A DNA stretch of 31,458 nt from a virus: IMG/VR virus record IMGVR_UViG_3300038301_000365, positions 1 through 31,458 of that record; one strand, written 5' to 3'. Under the pieces are notes generated by a model. The model made no database searches. It was not told where the DNA came from and saw nothing but the letters and a program-made list of their open reading frames with translations. This document shows, one piece after another, positions 10,994 to 20,121 of the stretch (positions are counted from its first letter, which is position 1; each line of letters starts with the position of its first letter). Made by a program: the position numbers and the translations under genes.

Positions 10994-11962
10994 TCATGGA
11001 CCCGGCACGGGTATTCTGGTTAATTCTCCCTCTCCATCAGAGAGGACATCGCCAGAAAGGCGCAAAACGGGAAGATCAAACGGGGAGACTGGCGCTGTAG
11101 CGCTAGGGTCATTTCTGTATCCAGGCAGATATTCTACAAGAGAGAACGAGACAGACTTGGCATTATTTACCCCCTGACCTGGTTTCTGTACGTATGTTAT
11201 CCCTGTTACCTCTCCTGTTACTGGCACACTTGCAACCTCTATGTTTGTTATCGCTCCGCCTCCTGTTGAGATCTGAGACACAAAATAATCAGACATCACA
11301 TATGGAAGCATGATAAAATCACTCACCCTCACCTCGGGGACTATATCGATCTCAAGGCTCAGTGAAACAGACCCATCCCTTACGGTGATGAAATACCCAG
11401 TCGAGTTCGCGGCATACGCAAAGCCAAACGACACGTCTGTTTTCACGCCATCAATAAACACGTCACCATCTGACCTGAATATTATCGGAAGAAACCCAGG
11501 GGTATCCTCGACCACAAGTATCACAGTCCACTTGTCGTCGTCAAACTGGCATCCCCAGGCAAAAGCGTCAGGAAACGATTGAAACGGGGAAAGATACATG
11601 TCCAATGTCCCGGTTGACCAGTAATCCCCTGTCGCCCCAGTGAACGTAAATCCCTCGTTGGCCCCAAGCCCCCTCATGCCCCTCCCTGTAAACCCAGGTA
11701 TGGGGGATAATCCGGTTGAGGAGGTTGGGCCATCGCCGAACCTAACGGCATGTCCTTGGCCATTTATTAGATGAATGAAGTTGTCAGCAATCTGATAATC
11801 CTGAAACATCGCCGTGGCTTCCCATGTTCTCCTGTAGCCACGCGCCATGTTTCTGGCGTCACCAGAAAAGGCCCTGTCGTTGTCGCCCATTTTTGTCTGC
11901 CCCCTTCGGCACTGGCCGAGGGCGATAGGGACAACAATACTGTTTAGGGCAAGAAACGGCAT
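10994..11962 (-). CDS. Distal tail protein-like minor tail protein
   Basis: The protein has 322 residues from ATG 11962. I chose this start because GGAGGT lies eight bases upstream and the ATG overlaps the tape measure stop as TGATG. An ATG six codons earlier lacks a good SD. The gene directly follows the tape measure gene, the usual place of the distal tail protein (Dit), which forms the ring joining the tail tube to the tip. It begins MPFLALNSIVVPIALGQ, with a later stretch RGYRRTWEATAMFQDYQIAD. It is a paralogue of the N-terminal part of the next gene. No LamG domain is present here. Assignment rests on position and on this paralogy, not on a diagnostic motif. Confidence 0.7.
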   Translation of the reverse strand: MPFLALNSIVVPIALGQCRRGQTKMGDNDRAFSGDARNMARGYRRTWEATAMFQDYQIADNFIHLINGQGHAVRFGDGPTSSTGLSPIPGFTGRGMRGLGANEGFTFTGATGDYWSTGTLDMYLSPFQSFPDAFAWGCQFDDDKWTVILVVEDTPGFLPIIFRSDGDVFIDGVKTDVSFGFAYAANSTGYFITVRDGSVSLSLEIDIVPEVRVSDFIMLPYVMSDYFVSQISTGGGAITNIEVASVPVTGEVTGITYVQKPGQGVNNAKSVSFSLVEYLPGYRNDPSATAPVSPFDLPVLRLSGDVLSDGEGELTRIPVPGP

Positions 11963-14900
11963 CAGTCGCCACCTCCCCACTGACCACCTCTTCTTGTGTC
12001 AGAGTTGAACGGGGTGCCAAGCTGCTGCATCGAATCTCTTTCAACCCTTCTTGCGACCTCATTCCCGAAGTCTGCTGGGCTGGATATGTCGTTAATGTTC
12101 ATATCATTAATATAAACATTCGTGACACTGCCTCTTCCTTCCGATGCAAAGTTGTTGCCCATGCCTCCAAGAAGGTTGTTTTCCCCTCTCTCGAATGCCT
12201 CTCCTGGGTCAACGAGGGCGGACATCACGAAGTCTGCTGCCCTTGAGAATGCCTCTTCAAATCCATGAAGGGTTCTGTCGAGCGAGCCATTAAGCACATC
12301 ACCAAATATGTCTGCCCAGTCGTTTGGATTCATCACTTCTGTCAGCCGCTCAATGTCGTCCTTAAGTTGACCAATGACGGGATCACCACTTCCATAAGCT
12401 CCAGACCACTCTGAACCCAGCCTGTTAAAATAGTCATTGGGATCCATGTCGGCAAGTTTCTTTCTGCTTACGCCTGCCACTGCCGCCCCTGGGTTTTCAT
12501 CGTCCAGGCTTAAGTATCTGGCAAGATTGACCCTGAATCCCTCTGGGACATTTGTTAGCTGCTCCCCAAACTCGGAAAGGTCCATGTTCTTTCTAGCTGC
12601 TATCTCCTCGGCTATCGCCAGAGCCTCTTCGTATGTGAGATTCATAAGTTCTTGTATCGCCAGAGCCATGGCACCAAGATCTGGCTTCAGGTCCCTTGCT
12701 GCGTCTGCAAGGTCTTGAAGTGTGTCCCCGGCAGATCCAAGGGAAAACTCATCAAGGCCATCAGCAACCGTGATTATTGCTGTCTTGCTAAGCCCCAAGG
12801 CACCGGCGAAATCTGCCAATCCCCTGAGTATCCAGGCAAGCCCCCCAAGGAGTGCCTTCCCAAATTCATCCATAAAGGTGTTCACCTGGGAGGGAACATT
12901 TTCCAGTAGCCACGCGATTACTTCAAGAACCCCTGTGGCGAAATATCCAACAGCGAGCATCGACGTAGCAAATATAATGGCTAGATTTTTAAGCGCATAA
13001 AACACTGTTCGGGATAATCCCCCCACGTTGGAAAACCCCTGGGCAAGCGGAAGCATCACGTTTACAAGCGCCGAGAAAAGTCCAGCAAGAGGCATGACGC
13101 CAGCCCATAGACTATCAAGTGCTATAATGAGAGGGTCTAACGCCCCAGAAAAGGCAGCTTTAACGTCTTTCCTTTTGGACTTAAACTCTTCTTGAACATT
13201 TCCCTCTTCATCAACATACGGACCTTCCACGTCCTTGAATGCAAGGGCAGTGAAGAAGGTAAGCACCCCAGCAAGACCGGCCGTAAGTGCAGCGGCAATG
13301 CCTGCGAGAATCAATCCGATCCCAGCGGCTATAACCGCAGGTATACCAGCAGCTATAACAGCTCCAAGGGCAAAAATGGCTGTCATTGCCGCCCCCACGG
13401 CCACCGCAAGCAAACTAAACACTGCTGGGTTCATTGCGGCCAGCATAAGGTTCCAAATGGCGAAAAACTTTATGACTGAATCAATGATAATAGCGGCAGC
13501 GGCAAGTATCGCCAGATCAATAATTAAAAAGGTTGCCACTAACGTGCCGACTACCGCGGTAAGGACTAAGAGTATGCCTGTAAGTACCCCTGTAATCACT
13601 GCCAGCAGCGTTAGCTCTGGAAGAAAGTGAAGAGTGACCATCGCCAGCAACCCCATCGCGGCAGCAGCAAGGGCAAGGACGGGAACAATCGAAAGTGCGG
13701 CAATGCTGACAACAGCGAGTGCAGCGGCAATGCTCGCGCCGACGTTGAATACCCCTCCACCAGGCGTTAGCTGCTCGACTGATGTCGAAAACGCAGATCC
13801 CGCCCTTTCCTCTGGGAAGTAATCCCCAAGAGCCATGAGGCCAGACTTTACGTTTTCACCAAACTTCTTAATGCTGTCAAAAATAAACTTACCAGCCTGC
13901 TGAAGTTTTGACGCAATAAATTTAAACGCCCCAGTTATGGCACTGAGGGCCTTGCCGGCAAACTCAGGGATCCTTTTAGCAAACCCCTCCACAAGATCTC
14001 CAGCTATGGAACCAACTATTGGACCCCATACCGCTCCCCCGTAGGCCGAAAACGCAGAGCCAACTGCTGTACCAACAGCCCCTCCTATCGTAGCCCCCAC
14101 CCCAGACGGCAGCTCTATGCCCTCAAACAGTCCAGCCATCTCGTTGCCAATGGCGTCGCCGCCCTCCTTGCCGAGTCCTCCAAACATATCCTGAACCCAG
14201 TCCGATATTTCCTGATTGATCTCCATATCTTTGATGGCGTCTATGTCGCCAATGGTTTCAGGGAGCTTCGCGTTTGGATCAATAACGTCTTCTTCTGGGA
14301 TATTAATCCCCTCAAGCCTCTCGTTTAATTTTCTTGCTTCCTCGGCTGTCATGCCGAACTGTGCCGCGACAAGAAGTACCTCTTCACTCAACCCGCTAAA
14401 GTCAGGTGCCAATTTATCCGCCCACTCACCAAGAGTTTTTATGCGAAATTCCAAAAATCTTATCTCAAGAGCAAGATCTTTCGCTTCTTCTGATGCCTCG
14501 CCGAGACCCTTCAGCCTCTTCTTCATCTCAGCAAGCTCTTCTCCTTTGTCCTCTAGGCCCCCCTTTGCCTCCTTATGCCGCCCTGTTGCCTCATCGACCT
14601 TCTCCACAAAGTCAGAAAAGTTGCCAAAACTCTTTAGGTCTTTATCGTATTCAATGTCTGAAATCTTTTCAGCCGCATCACTAAGACTATCCGACACGGC
14701 TTTAACGGCAGGTTCAAGAGCGGTCGCCACCTTCTCTGATACCAGCCCCTTGTCAACACTGAAGATCTCAGGGTTAACGCTTAGCGTCTCCGCTGCCTTC
14801 TTTGTTATCGCGTCAACAACGCTTAAATACTTGCTCTGGCCGTCTTTAAAGCTTATCGCCCCATCAGAGATAGCTTTGGCCAGGTCTGTCGCCGCCTTAT

Positions 14901-17900
14901 CTGTTACCTGGGTAATCCCGGCCTGTGTTATATTTTCTAACTGCTGTTTTTGGGGCTTATTGAGCCTTACATTCGACTTGGCAGCCGTACTTATGGCTTT
15001 GTTAATCTGATTCATTTCAAAGGAAAAAGCTTTCAGCGCATCCATTGATGCAGACAACTCTTTCCCAGACCTTTTTTGAAGGTAGACGTACTTTTCAAAC
15101 TCTTTCTTGTTTAGGAGATCTCCAATGGAGGCCTTCGCGGCCTTCCATCTTTTGGTTGCGGCCTTCTTCTCAAGCTTCATGATTGTCTCTAGCTGACTTT
15201 TACGTTTAGCGAGAGTGTCTATGAGTATTTCCGTGTGCTTAATCTTTTTCAGCTCAGCATCTGACGCGGCCTCTGTCGCGCTGGCAAGATTTACGCCGAG
15301 TTCCTCACTTGCTACATTTATAGCCTTCCCAATAGCCAAGCTCATTGCACCAAGCTTCTCGTTCAGCGTTTTACCCTTGTCTTTGTATATTGCTGTTATT
15401 TTTTCAGTCGCGACGCCCATATCTTTAAGGTTGTTCACGATATTCTTAAAGCCCTCACCGCTAATATCGCCCTTAATCGAAGCACCAAGCTTGATCTGCA
15501 TGTTGTCGGCAAAATCTTGAATGACCTTATCTGTGTTGCCGACAGTGTTTTTTATCTCTGTCACAACCTTTCTTCTCGCCTGCATCTCCTTTTGCATCTC
15601 GCGAATTTGATCTCTTGTTGTGGATAAAGCAAGGCTGTCCCTCTCCTTTATCTTCTCTTCTGACTGATCGACCCCGGCACCAAATACTCCAAACTTTTCA
15701 TCAAGTACAGACGTGGCGGCTTGGGCGTCCTTTATTGTCGCTATGTAGTTGCCATACAGGGGGCCGCCCTTGCTTAACTCGGTCACACTGTCCCCTAAAA
15801 CGCCTGCGAATGCCTTCAGGCCAGATGAAACCTTTACTAACTCCCCCTCCTCTTCCATGCCTTGCCTGGAAAATTTTACTTCGCCCCTCTCCTCCCTGAC
15901 GCTACCCATTATTTTATCAAGGCTGGTCTGACCTGACGCATCGTTGCCAAACCCAATCTGCTCGGCCACTTTTTCCTGGGCGTCTGTCAGCCCCGTACCC
16001 TCAAATACACCCTTTAGCTTATTACTTGCATTCTCCATCGTCCCAAAGGTTGCAAGCAGACCAGTGAAGCCCCCTAACAATGCGCCAGCAGCAATAACCA
16101 AAGTCGCAAACCCTCCACCAACAGCCGTGATTGTACCCATGAAACCGTTAAAGACAGTCGTGGCAAGGCCGCCAATTTTAAGGAACATTCCACCGGTATT
16201 TTTTAAGGTCCCTCCCAGCTTTTTCGCAACCTCTTTAAGTCCCGAACCAGTCCCGATGAAGGTGGGAATGTTGCTGCCTCTCGCAGAGGCCGCACTGGAC
16301 GACATCTTCTTCGAGGTACTAAAAGCAGTGCCGATAGCCCCACCGAAGGCCCCGCCTGCGCTGACAGCACTTGATACAGTTTTATTTTTGAGCATTGACG
16401 CCGTTAACAGCTCCAACGCAGTTTTAACTCGCGTGATCCCGCCTATGGCAATGCCGGTCCAGCTCAAAAACCAGCCTGCAATGTTAAGGGCCATCATTGA
16501 GGTAAGAGCAACGCCGATACCAAGAAGAACCTTTGCGATTTTGGCCAATCCATCCTTATTCTTTGCCAGCTTGTTAAAGAACTTGGTAAGCCGAGAGGAG
16601 ACCTTGGCTATCGTCGGCAAAAGAGCGTTTCCTATGACGACGGCAAGGTTCTGAAATGAGCTTTTCAGTATATTAAGTTTACCCAGAGCGGTATCAAGAA
16701 GCTGCTTCTCAAGCTTCTCCCCAAATTCCATCCAGTCAGATTCTTGAATGTTGTCCCTGAGCCTGATGAACTCCTCTGTTCCCTGGGCGAGAGCGGCAGC
16801 AATCTTGGGACCAGCCCTCTCTCCAAATATTTCGACTAGGCCAGTAAGAAACTCTAGCTTCTTGCCCTTTTTGGTGAACGCATCCATCGCTCCGCTGAGT
16901 TTCTGAAGGACCTTGAGCTGCCCAAAATCGCCCTGTAGGTCCTCTTTGTTAAGTCCAAAAGATGCCATTGCGGCGCGGGACTTCTCAGTGGTCTTCATCA
17001 TCGCAAAGAAAGACCTTTTCAACGCTGTACCGGCCTCTGTGCCTTGGATGCCCACGTTACCGAGAAGACCAATCATGGCGAAGAGATCTTCTTTCGGCAT
17101 GTCGAGAAGCTTTGCGTTTGACCCTGCAAGCTTAAACGCCTCACCCATCTGCATGAGGTCAACATTGGCATTGGTGAACGTGCCAATGAGCATGTTTGCC
17201 GTACTCTCCATCTCAGCCCTAAAGCGAGAGGTGACATCTGCACTGGTGAGCATCTGTTGGTTGAAAATGCCCTGCTCTGCATTCTCTGCTCGAAGTGTCT
17301 TCTCCACGTTCGAGAGAGTGATTCCGTACCCAGCCATGACATTGGTTACAATGTTTCCTGACTGCGCCATGGAAAGACCACCGGCAGTCGCAACCCTTGC
17401 TATCGTATCAATCGAGTTGACGATTGCATCAGGCTTAAACCCGGCCATCGCCATAAACTTCATGCCCTGGACAATCTGGTCTGCCGTATGCTCTGTTCTC
17501 GATGCGGTCTCCAAAGCCTTCTTTGACAGCAGGTCAAAATCCTTGCCGACACCCCTCGTCGTACCAGTGGAGATGGCCGTAACCCTTGTCATATCCTGGT
17601 TAAACTTGGCCGCGAATATCCCAGAAGCAGCACCCGCCCCAAGAAGAACCGCGCCATACCTTCCCATGCTGTTTGCGGCAGACCTCATGTCTGTCCCCAT
17701 GTTCCTCAAGGTCACGCCAAGTTTTGCGAAGTTTTTACGGGACGAGGCGGCCTTACTGCCTGCCTTTTTGACAGAATTTCCAGCCTTGTTGAAGGCGCCG
17801 GAAGCCTTGTTTATCTTCTGGGCAGCCTCTTCAAATTCTTTTGATATTTTAGAGAATCTAGTGGTAAGGCCACTTAGCTTCTTCCCCATCTGGAGAATAG

Positions 17901-17979
17901 CCTTGTTTGCCTTGGTCATATTAGCAACGAACTGGGCTGTCTCCCCTACAAGCGTAACCTTCGTCTTCGTATCAACCAT
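11962..17979 (-). CDS. Tail tape measure protein (TP901 family)
   Basis: This 2005-residue protein is the longest in the window. It sets tail length and is normally ejected ahead of the DNA. The N-terminus is helical and Lys/Ala-rich. Residues about 130-480 match the TP901-type tape measure core (FNQDMTRVTAISTG, HTADQIVQGMKFMAMAGF, VTNVMAGYGI, GTALKRSFFAMMKT). Hydrophobic segments lie near 483-520 and 615-640. A long run of membrane-like helices lies near 1413-1570, which fits the membrane-crossing part of such proteins. Long charged coiled-coil regions lie between. It begins one base after the GT chaperone stop, with an AGAGG SD. Its stop overlaps the next start. At about 0.15 nm per residue, the tail would be near 300 nm. 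No lytic enzyme domain was seen. Confidence 0.95.
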   Translation of the reverse strand: MVDTKTKVTLVGETAQFVANMTKANKAILQMGKKLSGLTTRFSKISKEFEEAAQKINKASGAFNKAGNSVKKAGSKAASSRKNFAKLGVTLRNMGTDMRSAANSMGRYGAVLLGAGAASGIFAAKFNQDMTRVTAISTGTTRGVGKDFDLLSKKALETASRTEHTADQIVQGMKFMAMAGFKPDAIVNSIDTIARVATAGGLSMAQSGNIVTNVMAGYGITLSNVEKTLRAENAEQGIFNQQMLTSADVTSRFRAEMESTANMLIGTFTNANVDLMQMGEAFKLAGSNAKLLDMPKEDLFAMIGLLGNVGIQGTEAGTALKRSFFAMMKTTEKSRAAMASFGLNKEDLQGDFGQLKVLQKLSGAMDAFTKKGKKLEFLTGLVEIFGERAGPKIAAALAQGTEEFIRLRDNIQESDWMEFGEKLEKQLLDTALGKLNILKSSFQNLAVVIGNALLPTIAKVSSRLTKFFNKLAKNKDGLAKIAKVLLGIGVALTSMMALNIAGWFLSWTGIAIGGITRVKTALELLTASMLKNKTVSSAVSAGGAFGGAIGTAFSTSKKMSSSAASARGSNIPTFIGTGSGLKEVAKKLGGTLKNTGGMFLKIGGLATTVFNGFMGTITAVGGGFATLVIAAGALLGGFTGLLATFGTMENASNKLKGVFEGTGLTDAQEKVAEQIGFGNDASGQTSLDKIMGSVREERGEVKFSRQGMEEEGELVKVSSGLKAFAGVLGDSVTELSKGGPLYGNYIATIKDAQAATSVLDEKFGVFGAGVDQSEEKIKERDSLALSTTRDQIREMQKEMQARRKVVTEIKNTVGNTDKVIQDFADNMQIKLGASIKGDISGEGFKNIVNNLKDMGVATEKITAIYKDKGKTLNEKLGAMSLAIGKAINVASEELGVNLASATEAASDAELKKIKHTEILIDTLAKRKSQLETIMKLEKKAATKRWKAAKASIGDLLNKKEFEKYVYLQKRSGKELSASMDALKAFSFEMNQINKAISTAAKSNVRLNKPQKQQLENITQAGITQVTDKAATDLAKAISDGAISFKDGQSKYLSVVDAITKKAAETLSVNPEIFSVDKGLVSEKVATALEPAVKAVSDSLSDAAEKISDIEYDKDLKSFGNFSDFVEKVDEATGRHKEAKGGLEDKGEELAEMKKRLKGLGEASEEAKDLALEIRFLEFRIKTLGEWADKLAPDFSGLSEEVLLVAAQFGMTAEEARKLNERLEGINIPEEDVIDPNAKLPETIGDIDAIKDMEINQEISDWVQDMFGGLGKEGGDAIGNEMAGLFEGIELPSGVGATIGGAVGTAVGSAFSAYGGAVWGPIVGSIAGDLVEGFAKRIPEFAGKALSAITGAFKFIASKLQQAGKFIFDSIKKFGENVKSGLMALGDYFPEERAGSAFSTSVEQLTPGGGVFNVGASIAAALAVVSIAALSIVPVLALAAAAMGLLAMVTLHFLPELTLLAVITGVLTGILLVLTAVVGTLVATFLIIDLAILAAAAIIIDSVIKFFAIWNLMLAAMNPAVFSLLAVAVGAAMTAIFALGAVIAAGIPAVIAAGIGLILAGIAAALTAGLAGVLTFFTALAFKDVEGPYVDEEGNVQEEFKSKRKDVKAAFSGALDPLIIALDSLWAGVMPLAGLFSALVNVMLPLAQGFSNVGGLSRTVFYALKNLAIIFATSMLAVGYFATGVLEVIAWLLENVPSQVNTFMDEFGKALLGGLAWILRGLADFAGALGLSKTAIITVADGLDEFSLGSAGDTLQDLADAARDLKPDLGAMALAIQELMNLTYEEALAIAEEIAARKNMDLSEFGEQLTNVPEGFRVNLARYLSLDDENPGAAVAGVSRKKLADMDPNDYFNRLGSEWSGAYGSGDPVIGQLKDDIERLTEVMNPNDWADIFGDVLNGSLDRTLHGFEEAFSRAADFVMSALVDPGEAFERGENNLLGGMGNNFASEGRGSVTNVYINDMNINDISSPADFGNEVARRVERDSMQQLGTPFNSDTRRGGQWGGGD

Positions 17980-17980
17980 C

Positions 17981-18894
17981 TTAGACCTCTGAATCCAAAT
18001 CTAATGCCGAACTGACATCAACGCTTTCATCGTAACCAGACAAGTCCACGCTTTCACCACCCAGACCATCCACTTCTGATTCGCCACCATCATCATCTTC
18101 GACCTTGATATCCTTTTGAATGCCCCGCATCATCGTCTGGAACGCACCCATATCTTTCTTGTTTGATATCATCTTCTGCTCAAACGCAGAAAGGCGCGGC
18201 TGTTTCGCCTTTTCGTTCTCCTTTTTGAAAAACTTTCCCTTGGGAAGAAGGTCTGCTGGCTTTATCTTCTTTTTGCTCCAGCAATTCATCAAATTGGCAC
18301 ACGCCCACGCTAAACGCTCCATCTCGTGGGTGGAGCGTTCCTCGTAGCCGTCTGCAATTATCTTAAACTCGCGCAAGGTCATCCCCGTGAATATATCATC
18401 GGGTCTACCCCAAAATTCATTGGGACTAATGCCGAGCGAAGAAGCTGATCGAACTAGCTCGCCAAACTGGAACCGCTTGCCGTGAGGCTCGCGCCGAAAG
18501 GGCTGGAGTTTTCCATTCCTCCCGTGTTCTCTTCTTCTTCTTCATCCTCTTCTTCTTCCATTAACTCTTCGGCACCAGGAAGACCCATTGCAATAGTTTC
18601 AACAACACTTGTCAGCAGCTCGGTAAAATCACCGTAATCGTCAATCCACCTAGACACCTTGGTTGTTGTAAGCTTGGCTTCTTTGCCCTTTTTGCCTGCA
18701 AACTCGTGCATGACACCGACAAGAATAGCCTCCCTTAAAATACGAATACCAATAAGATCCTCAGAAAGGATCTTGCTGATACCCATCCCTAAACGCTCCT
18801 CCAACATGCAAATCTCATGGGATCGAAACCGCAAGGTTCTCGATTGACCACCAAGTTTAATGTGAAGAATACCTCTTTGCTTATTTTTAACCAT
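17981..18894 (-). CDS. Tail assembly chaperone GT fusion made by -1 frameshift
   Basis: This is the predicted product of 304 residues. The first 133 come from the G frame (18894-18496). After a -1 slip at C CCT TTC, 171 residues follow in the frame ending at 17981. The -1 frame is open through the junction and encodes HGKRFQFGELVRSASSLGIS, then PNEFWGRPDDIFTG before the internal ATG 18382 (MTLREF). Segments like LGISPNEFWG...MTLREF are typical of tail assembly chaperones in siphoviruses and gene transfer agents, and they lie upstream of any in-frame ATG. Their presence strongly suggests the frame is used. The C-terminal tail is acidic (DDDGGESEVDG). By analogy with lambda gpGT, the T part would bind tail tube subunits while G binds the tape measure. 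A separate start at 18382 cannot be ruled out. Confidence 0.8.
18454..18894 (-). CDS. Tail assembly chaperone G (unshifted product)
   Basis: The product has 146 residues from ATG 18894. This start is preferred over GTG 18900 because GGGAG lies five bases upstream of the ATG. The body (about 8-105) is helical and basic to mixed (LRFRSHEICMLEERLGMGIS, REAILVGVMHEFAGKKGK). A strongly acidic Glu-rich stretch follows (ELMEEEEDEEEEE), then a Ser/Gly-rich end. It lies between the tail tube genes and the tape measure, the place of lambda gene G. Such chaperones coat the tape measure and recruit tube subunits, and are not part of the finished virion. The stop TAG at 18454-18456 lies well inside the overlapping -1 frame. 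Confidence 0.85.
   Translation of the reverse strand: MVKNKQRGILHIKLGGQSRTLRFRSHEICMLEERLGMGISKILSEDLIGIRILREAILVGVMHEFAGKKGKEAKLTTTKVSRWIDDYGDFTELLTSVVETIAMGLPGAEELMEEEEDEEEEENTGGMENSSPFGASLTASGSSLAS
18496..18502 (-). promoter_or_regulatory. -1 programmed ribosomal frameshift heptamer CCCTTTC
   Basis: In the G frame the site reads C CCT TTC, a perfect X XXY YYZ heptamer. The frame was checked from the TAG at 18456. After slipping, the codons read CCC TTT and enter the GT frame. An internal SD-like GGGAGG lies 15 bases upstream (18518-18523), somewhat like the stimulator in dnaX. A possible hairpin lies just downstream: CGC and GCC pair with GGC and GCG across a GA/AA internal loop and a TCAC tip. 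Confidence 0.8.
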
Positions 18895-18933: not shown

Positions 18934-19518
18934 TTAAAGAATAACCATTACAGATCCACTCAACCTAAGAGAAATGTCCAAGGTTGCAACATCATCCAAG
19001 GGACTACCAGGCGAGAAGCTTGTTGCAAAGGCTGCGCCGTTAAATTGTCGCGCATTCGTTGCCGGGATCGCACCCAAGAAGGCAGGTCCGTCTGGAAGAT
19101 ACCAATAATAAAAAAGCTTTGATTGCATGGCGCAAAAAAGAATATTCGCCTGAGCAACATCGCTTTCGTCGTATCGCAGCGTTAAGTCCAAGGTCTCATC
19201 ATGGAAATTGGGGATGTAGGTCCTTGCTGTGTTGTGGTCTACTGTGGACAGTCCGTATGTGCCTGCCGTATTATGAACCGTTGTTTCCAACTCATCGACA
19301 TTGCCGTTGAATGTCGCATCAACCAAGGAACTCAGGATAATACCTGTTGGCGCTGATGCTGAGCCTACTGGCACCTCAATGCTCTCAGGATCAGGACCTG
19401 GAGTCGCTACACCTAAGGTGCCACCGTCTGCTGTTGGCTGGTCAACATTGGTCGCCACACCTGCGGCAACCTCTGCACCAACCCAAAATTCACCTAGTCT
19501 ACCTGCTATTGCTGTCAT
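18934..19518 (-). CDS. Major tail (tube) protein paralogue 2
   Basis: The protein has 194 residues and is a close paralogue of the next protein to the right. Shared stretches include MTAIAGRLGEFW, LSSLVDAT, NGNVDELETTVHNTAG, DHNTAR, YIPNFHDET, TSFSPG and PLDDVATLD. The pattern NGNVDELETT...FHDETLDLTLRYDE fits phage tail tube proteins, which polymerise into the tail shaft around the tape measure. The start has AGGAG eight bases upstream. It lies 27 bases after its paralogue and just before the chaperone genes. Which of the two makes the bulk of the tube cannot be told from sequence. This copy is next to the chaperones that would act on it. Confidence 0.85.
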   Translation of the reverse strand: MTAIAGRLGEFWVGAEVAAGVATNVDQPTADGGTLGVATPGPDPESIEVPVGSASAPTGIILSSLVDATFNGNVDELETTVHNTAGTYGLSTVDHNTARTYIPNFHDETLDLTLRYDESDVAQANILFCAMQSKLFYYWYLPDGPAFLGAIPATNARQFNGAAFATSFSPGSPLDDVATLDISLRLSGSVMVIL

Positions 19519-19545: not shown

Positions 19546-20121
19546 TTAGTTAACAACCAAGATGGTTCCACTTAGGCGAAGCGTAAGGTCCAGCGTGGCA
19601 ACATCATCAAGAGGGGTTCCAGGGCTAAAGCTTGTGATAAACGAAGAACCCATCCAGCATCTCGTGCCGGCAGTTCCAGCGTCAAACCCCGGACCATCAG
19701 GAAAATACCAAAACCAAAACAATTTCGATTCAAAGGCGCAGAACATCATATTCCGCTGACATAAATCGTCCTCGTCATATCGAACAGTCAGATCCATGGT
19801 TTCATCGTGAAAGTTTGGAATATACTGACGCGCCGTGTTGTGATCAAGGCTGCTTCCAGTGTGAAATCCAGCCGTATTATGCACTGTAGTTTCAAGCTCA
19901 TCGACATTGCCGTTCATTGTCGCGTCAACGAGAGAGCTGAGAACAAGCGGCACCGCGGAACTTACCGGCCCTAGAGCGGCTACGGCCTCCGGGTCTACTC
20001 CCGGCGTAACCAGTGTTGCTTGTGGAACGTCAGTAATCGTTGGGTTCTGCGGGGGGCCGGCCAAAACGCTCAGGTCCACACCGGCCCAAAACTCTCCTAG
20101 TCTACCTGCTATCGCTGTCAT
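19546..20121 (-). CDS. Major tail (tube) protein paralogue 1
   Basis: The protein has 191 residues, and most residues are shared with the downstream paralogue across the C-terminal two thirds. The N-terminal region between about 15 and 60 is the most diverged part (LSVLAGPPQNPTITDVP here). A strong SD (AGGAG, six bases before ATG) and a leader with several hairpins precede it. This is the first gene after the only sizeable non-coding gap in the late block, which suggests it may be specially regulated for high expression. The two paralogues could form different rings (for example shaft versus neck or tip), mix in one tube, or one could carry a surface-exposed loop. None of these is shown by sequence. 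Confidence 0.85.
   Translation of the reverse strand: MTAIAGRLGEFWAGVDLSVLAGPPQNPTITDVPQATLVTPGVDPEAVAALGPVSSAVPLVLSSLVDATMNGNVDELETTVHNTAGFHTGSSLDHNTARQYIPNFHDETMDLTVRYDEDDLCQRNMMFCAFESKLFWFWYFPDGPGFDAGTAGTRCWMGSSFITSFSPGTPLDDVATLDLTLRLSGTILVVN

Follow-up and report, generated by a model that had tools for sequence, protein, structure and literature searches.

Frameshifting in phage tail genes is said to be a widely conserved device, a catalogue of such frameshifts having reportedly been assembled by Xu, Hendrix and Duda in 2004. In the lambda gpG/gpGT model the -1 frameshift takes place at G_GGA_AAG (PMC5009743). In phage TP901-1, mutation of the slip site results in capsids without tails only, and a permanent fusion of G and T results in non-infectious particles (PMC4493119). 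The E. coli phage 9g offers a third G/T pair, for which a -2 shift has been reported at 5'-CCCUUUUUUU (PMC4276943).

Here we describe a locus on a record of 31,458 bases from an uncultivated tailed phage (the window, by which we mean the whole stretch of DNA that was analysed), in which the G and T genes lie on the minus strand. As in lambda, a pair with a short upstream ORF is situated between the tube and tape measure genes, a -1 heptamer lies near the 3' end of the upstream ORF, and the downstream ORF appears to lack a start of its own; unlike lambda, which has G_GGA_AAG, the family of the window uses C_CCT_TTC/G. The architecture is the same as that of gpG/gpT from TP901-1, but the heptamer there is GGGAAAG and was tested by mutagenesis. 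In phage 9g, too, the slip stretch where G meets T consists of C followed by U, although its shift is -2 and the one proposed here is -1. A search of the literature, which did not extend to the 2004 catalogue, yielded no phage tail precedent for CCCTTTC, and CCCUUU in combination with tail assembly led to phage 9g only. That the locus is a new instance of a well-known, widely conserved device is well supported, and we put the probability that it is a lambda-type G/GT tail chaperone pair joined by a -1 slip at CCCTTTC at about 0.95.

Architecture of the locus and its proposed slip heptamer

The gene order in the window is tube-G-T-tape measure, as a lambda-type G/GT pair requires, and comprises the following features:

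19546..20121, minus strand: probable major tail (tube) protein, copy b, 58% identical to copy a
18934..19518, minus strand: probable major tail (tube) protein, copy a, adjoining G upstream, with a weak match to PHROG 1407 (major tail protein)
18454..18894, minus strand: G, candidate tail assembly chaperone ORF, 146 aa, from ATG 18894 to the stop TAG at 18454
18496..18502, minus strand: slip heptamer C_CCT_TTC in the G frame, with a predicted change from CCT to CCC in the P site and from TTC to TTT in the A site
17981..18496, minus strand: T segment of GT, 171 codons and the TAA, predicted to be reached only through the -1 slip
11962..17979, minus strand: tape measure protein, 2005 aa, matching Pfam PhageMin_Tail with E=1e-26

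The ATG of G at 18894 is preceded by AGGGAG, and an alternative start at GTG 18900 is possible. The protein consists of a helical domain followed by an acidic linker and a Ser/Ala tail, and is expected to be the main product of the locus. The heptamer starts 46 nt ahead of the G stop. The -1 frame has no stop codon between a point 39 nt upstream of the heptamer and the TAA at 17983-17981, and encodes a T segment that runs from RREPHGKRF to DLDSEV. The first in-frame ATG of the -1 frame, at 18382, comes 38 codons past the slip, with no ATG, GTG or TTG in between. From ATG 18894 the predicted fusion comprises 133 and 171 residues, which agrees with the 304 aa given in an earlier sequence-only reading of this DNA.

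That reading also took the heptamer to be the only canonical X_XXY_YYZ in the G frame, which is incorrect, as A_AAG_GGC occurs in the same frame at 18691-18685. This second site was considered as a fusion site and rejected: the -1 frame there soon meets stops, and no fusion is therefore possible from it. When the open overlap was recoded synonymously with the codon usage of the window, some in-frame XXXYYYZ arose with a probability of ~0.14, and the value for NNC-CCT-TTC given Ser-Pro-Phe was ~0.03. On its own the heptamer counts for little; what goes beyond chance is its retention in diverged relatives. All 64 heptamers have been measured in E. coli by Sharma and colleagues, who singled out C_CC.U_UU.C for high-level frameshifting; H_HH.U_UU.Y ranked among the most efficient heptamer classes in this host, and C_CC.U_UU.G exceeded 0.10% without stimulators (PMC4066793). 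These E. coli efficiencies may not transfer to the host of the phage described here.

Family matches come mainly through the homologues of the two proteins. PHROG 2115 (tail) is matched by all 14 G homologues and PHROG 183 (tail chaperone) by three of the 14, while Pfam Phage_TAC_11 (PF11836) is matched by 10 of 14 (best 5e-6) and Phage_TAC_6 (PF09550) by eight of 15 T homologues (best 5e-7). In contrast to these homologues, G and T of the window itself fall short of the curated Pfam cut-offs; the profile matches of T are weak, as is its similarity to the lambda T family of Pfam (E=0.05). An AlphaFold model of G, confident over most of residues 8-110, matches viral models (BFVD) named tail assembly chaperone, and GT of the lambda relative N15 is among the weaker hits (E=0.08), a further likeness to lambda. 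The PDB fold search with this model gave nothing below E=1.5, and when PDB sequences were searched using profiles of G and T, the hits were weak and unrelated, S100 proteins being among them. The model of T is of low confidence (pTM 0.41). Together, the family matches indicate that G and T are homologous to known TAC proteins, weakly so for the window's sequence alone.

Conservation of the junction and alternative accounts

Profile searches of IMG/VR recovered 25 further contigs, which are not independent samples; because several are near-identical, the codon test was restricted to distinct sequences. CCCTTT[C/G] occurs exactly at the G-to-T handover in 16 of the 25 viral contigs (11 distinct sequences), which answers the earlier proposal that homologues be aligned for conservation of CCCTTTC. 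T is in the -1 register relative to G in every relative, its identity to the T of the window falls to ~32%, and the G stop lies 7-73 nt past the slip. Across six diverged G genes, 24 residues are invariant and belong to amino acids with 4- or 6-fold codon degeneracy; 23 of them vary in codon, and the sole invariant codon is the slip-site Pro CCT. The same test leaves one invariant codon of 19 with seven G genes and one of seven with eight. Searches of annotated phages and of bacterial and archaeal genomes recovered no convincing match to T. G matched only Paenibacillus phages among the annotated phages, very weakly (E about 1), and even though some of these proteins are annotated as tail assembly chaperones we kept them out of the evidence.

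The part of the T frame that precedes the first ATG corresponds to the following feature:

18383..18496, minus strand: T codons from the slip to the first ATG, n=38, containing GISPNEFWGRPDD

Constraint was measured on the 23 codons of this stretch that are read in the T frame only, from the G stop to the first ATG. Their dN/dS is 0.02/0.21 against L008, a small count of four changes, and 0.12/1.59 against L009, where 11 of 17 substitutions fall at T-frame third positions; over all comparisons of these T-only codons dN is 0.02-0.15 and dS 0.21-1.59. If the 23 codons are read in the other frames, nearly all changes become non-synonymous. The 15-member T alignment begins directly after the heptamer, and the segment before the ATG aligns family-wide. 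These comparisons indicate that the -1 frame evolves as T-frame protein before its first ATG, and with dN well below dS they bear out the earlier claim that a two-gene annotation would lose 38 real codons.

The same evidence bears on the possibility that G and T are separate genes, with T initiated independently or by coupling, at ATG 18382 or at another start, an account that we regard as very improbable. Standard ORF callers would pick ATG 18382, which has GGGG right before it; however, this GGGG abuts the ATG, so that the spacing is wrong for a Shine-Dalgarno (SD) element, and the ATG itself falls inside the conserved T domain, after codons that are constrained in the T frame. There is also no start upstream of the T domain that is common to the lineages. 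A start before the GISPNEFW segment in related phages had been named in the sequence-only reading as evidence against frameshifting, but between the slip and the conserved FW neither ATG, GTG nor TTG is present in the window, L009, L011, L012, L016 or L005, and the starts of other relatives are at unshared positions; several go 35-54 codons without an ATG or lack one altogether. Separate initiation would, moreover, leave the invariant CCT codon unexplained. The site, its conservation, the protein-level constraint on the -1 frame, the homology and the gene order are all observed directly, and the principal claim of the earlier reading, that a -1 frameshift at CCCTTTC joins lambda-like G and GT, is upheld by them.

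The T domains of the near clade share an eight-residue insert (the GRPDDIxT region) after the conserved FW, at around 18382-18412 on the minus strand of the window. It is absent from the T domains of distant relatives.

The junction takes other forms in the distant relatives, namely A_AAA_AAG in L040 and L045-L048, A_AAA_AAA in L043 and G_GGA_AAC in L042. L041 and L044 have no XXXYYYZ in the overlap and keep the -1 register, a point that tells against the proposal; their slip site may perhaps be of another type. Runs of at least seven A in L040, L043 and L045 would allow slippage of the polymerase there, and the -2 shift at CCCUUUUUUU in phage 9g (PMC4276943) illustrates a different step size. 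Nevertheless, transcriptional slippage or a -2/+1 shift in place of a tandem -1 tRNA slip has a negligible chance of explaining the frame change: CCCTTTC is without a long homopolymer, T is at -1 in every relative, and all seven bases fit the X_XXY_YYZ rule, with both the CCC and the TTT blocks kept. Scarcely credible too, and already refuted for the family as a whole, is a single gene that an indel in sequencing or assembly has broken in two. Adjacent frames from one domain family can give such a picture, and one relative (L004/L010, one contig) has a broken G, but the identical -1 offset recurs at the same place in more than 12 separately assembled contigs from several lineages.

On the contig shared by L004 and L010 the middle of G is absent at about 2830-2980 and there is a change of frame ahead of the acidic linker; neither T nor the CCCTTTG junction is affected. 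The broken G is probably an assembly fault or a deletion.

Candidate stimulators of the slip

Two elements flanking the heptamer had been suggested to stimulate slipping:

18518..18523, minus strand: GGGAGG, SD-like, a possible but unproven candidate stimulator, 15 nt 5' of the slip
18416..18495, minus strand: 3' region examined for a stimulatory structure, none detected

Neither suggestion gains support from the calculations. The duplex of GGGAGG with the anti-SD has an energy of -10.0 kcal/mol at a spacing of 14-15 nt to the slip, and its pairing strength is equalled in 21% of synonymous recodings (p=0.21), no more than expected because the linker is rich in Glu and Gly. An SD-like element is also strong in L021, L022 and L005, and the similar elements of L021 and L022, with a spacing of 12 nt, keep the idea alive. 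The downstream hairpin fares no better, as pseudoknot-free folding of the RNA 3' of the slip gives a z of +0.51, with 144 of 200 shuffles folding as well or better; the corresponding z values in relatives, again from pseudoknot-free folding, are mixed (+0.77 to -2.8).

Proposed mechanism and consequences for tail assembly

Under the lambda-type reading, the majority of ribosomes would finish the 146-aa G, stopping at 18454, and a minority would slip one base back on C_CCU_UUC. This would be a standard tandem -1 slip, with tRNA-Pro in the P site re-pairing with CCC instead of CCU and tRNA-Phe in the A site with UUU instead of UUC, and the reading of 171 more codons would then give the 304-aa GT. 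The T segment, being without a start of its own, would exist solely within GT. By analogy with lambda, G is likely to bind the 2005-aa tape measure protein and the T domain of GT to recruit the tube protein, and the slip would matter through the ratio of G to GT that it sets. From the sequences we infer the slipping itself, the slip level and the chaperone function, the last following the lambda and TP901-1 models.

The tape measure ATG lies one base past the T stop in the window (17979-17983, minus strand), and its offset from the T stop is -1 to +2 in L008, L009, L010, L014, L017, L022 and L040. It is conceivable, if rather unlikely, that the slip also sets the output of the tape measure gene, with the ribosomes that make GT re-initiating on it, in which case the amounts of GT and tape measure protein would be coupled. 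The tape measure gene has an AGAGG of its own, through which its initiation may be independent of GT.

In most relatives, too, G is immediately preceded by a tube protein homologue. Tandem tube-like copies like those of the window are seen in L002, L003, L010, L014 and L017, and a single copy in L005, L011, L013, L016 and L021; the tandem genes may represent a two-subunit tube or a pattern of duplication and loss.

The finding leaves the understanding of tail assembly unchanged. What it provides, for a group of uncultivated phages in which the chaperone genes otherwise resemble two unrelated ORFs, is a well-defined and conserved slip site, C_CCT_TTC/G, together with alignments that mark where annotation should fuse G and T, restoring ~38 codons to the protein.
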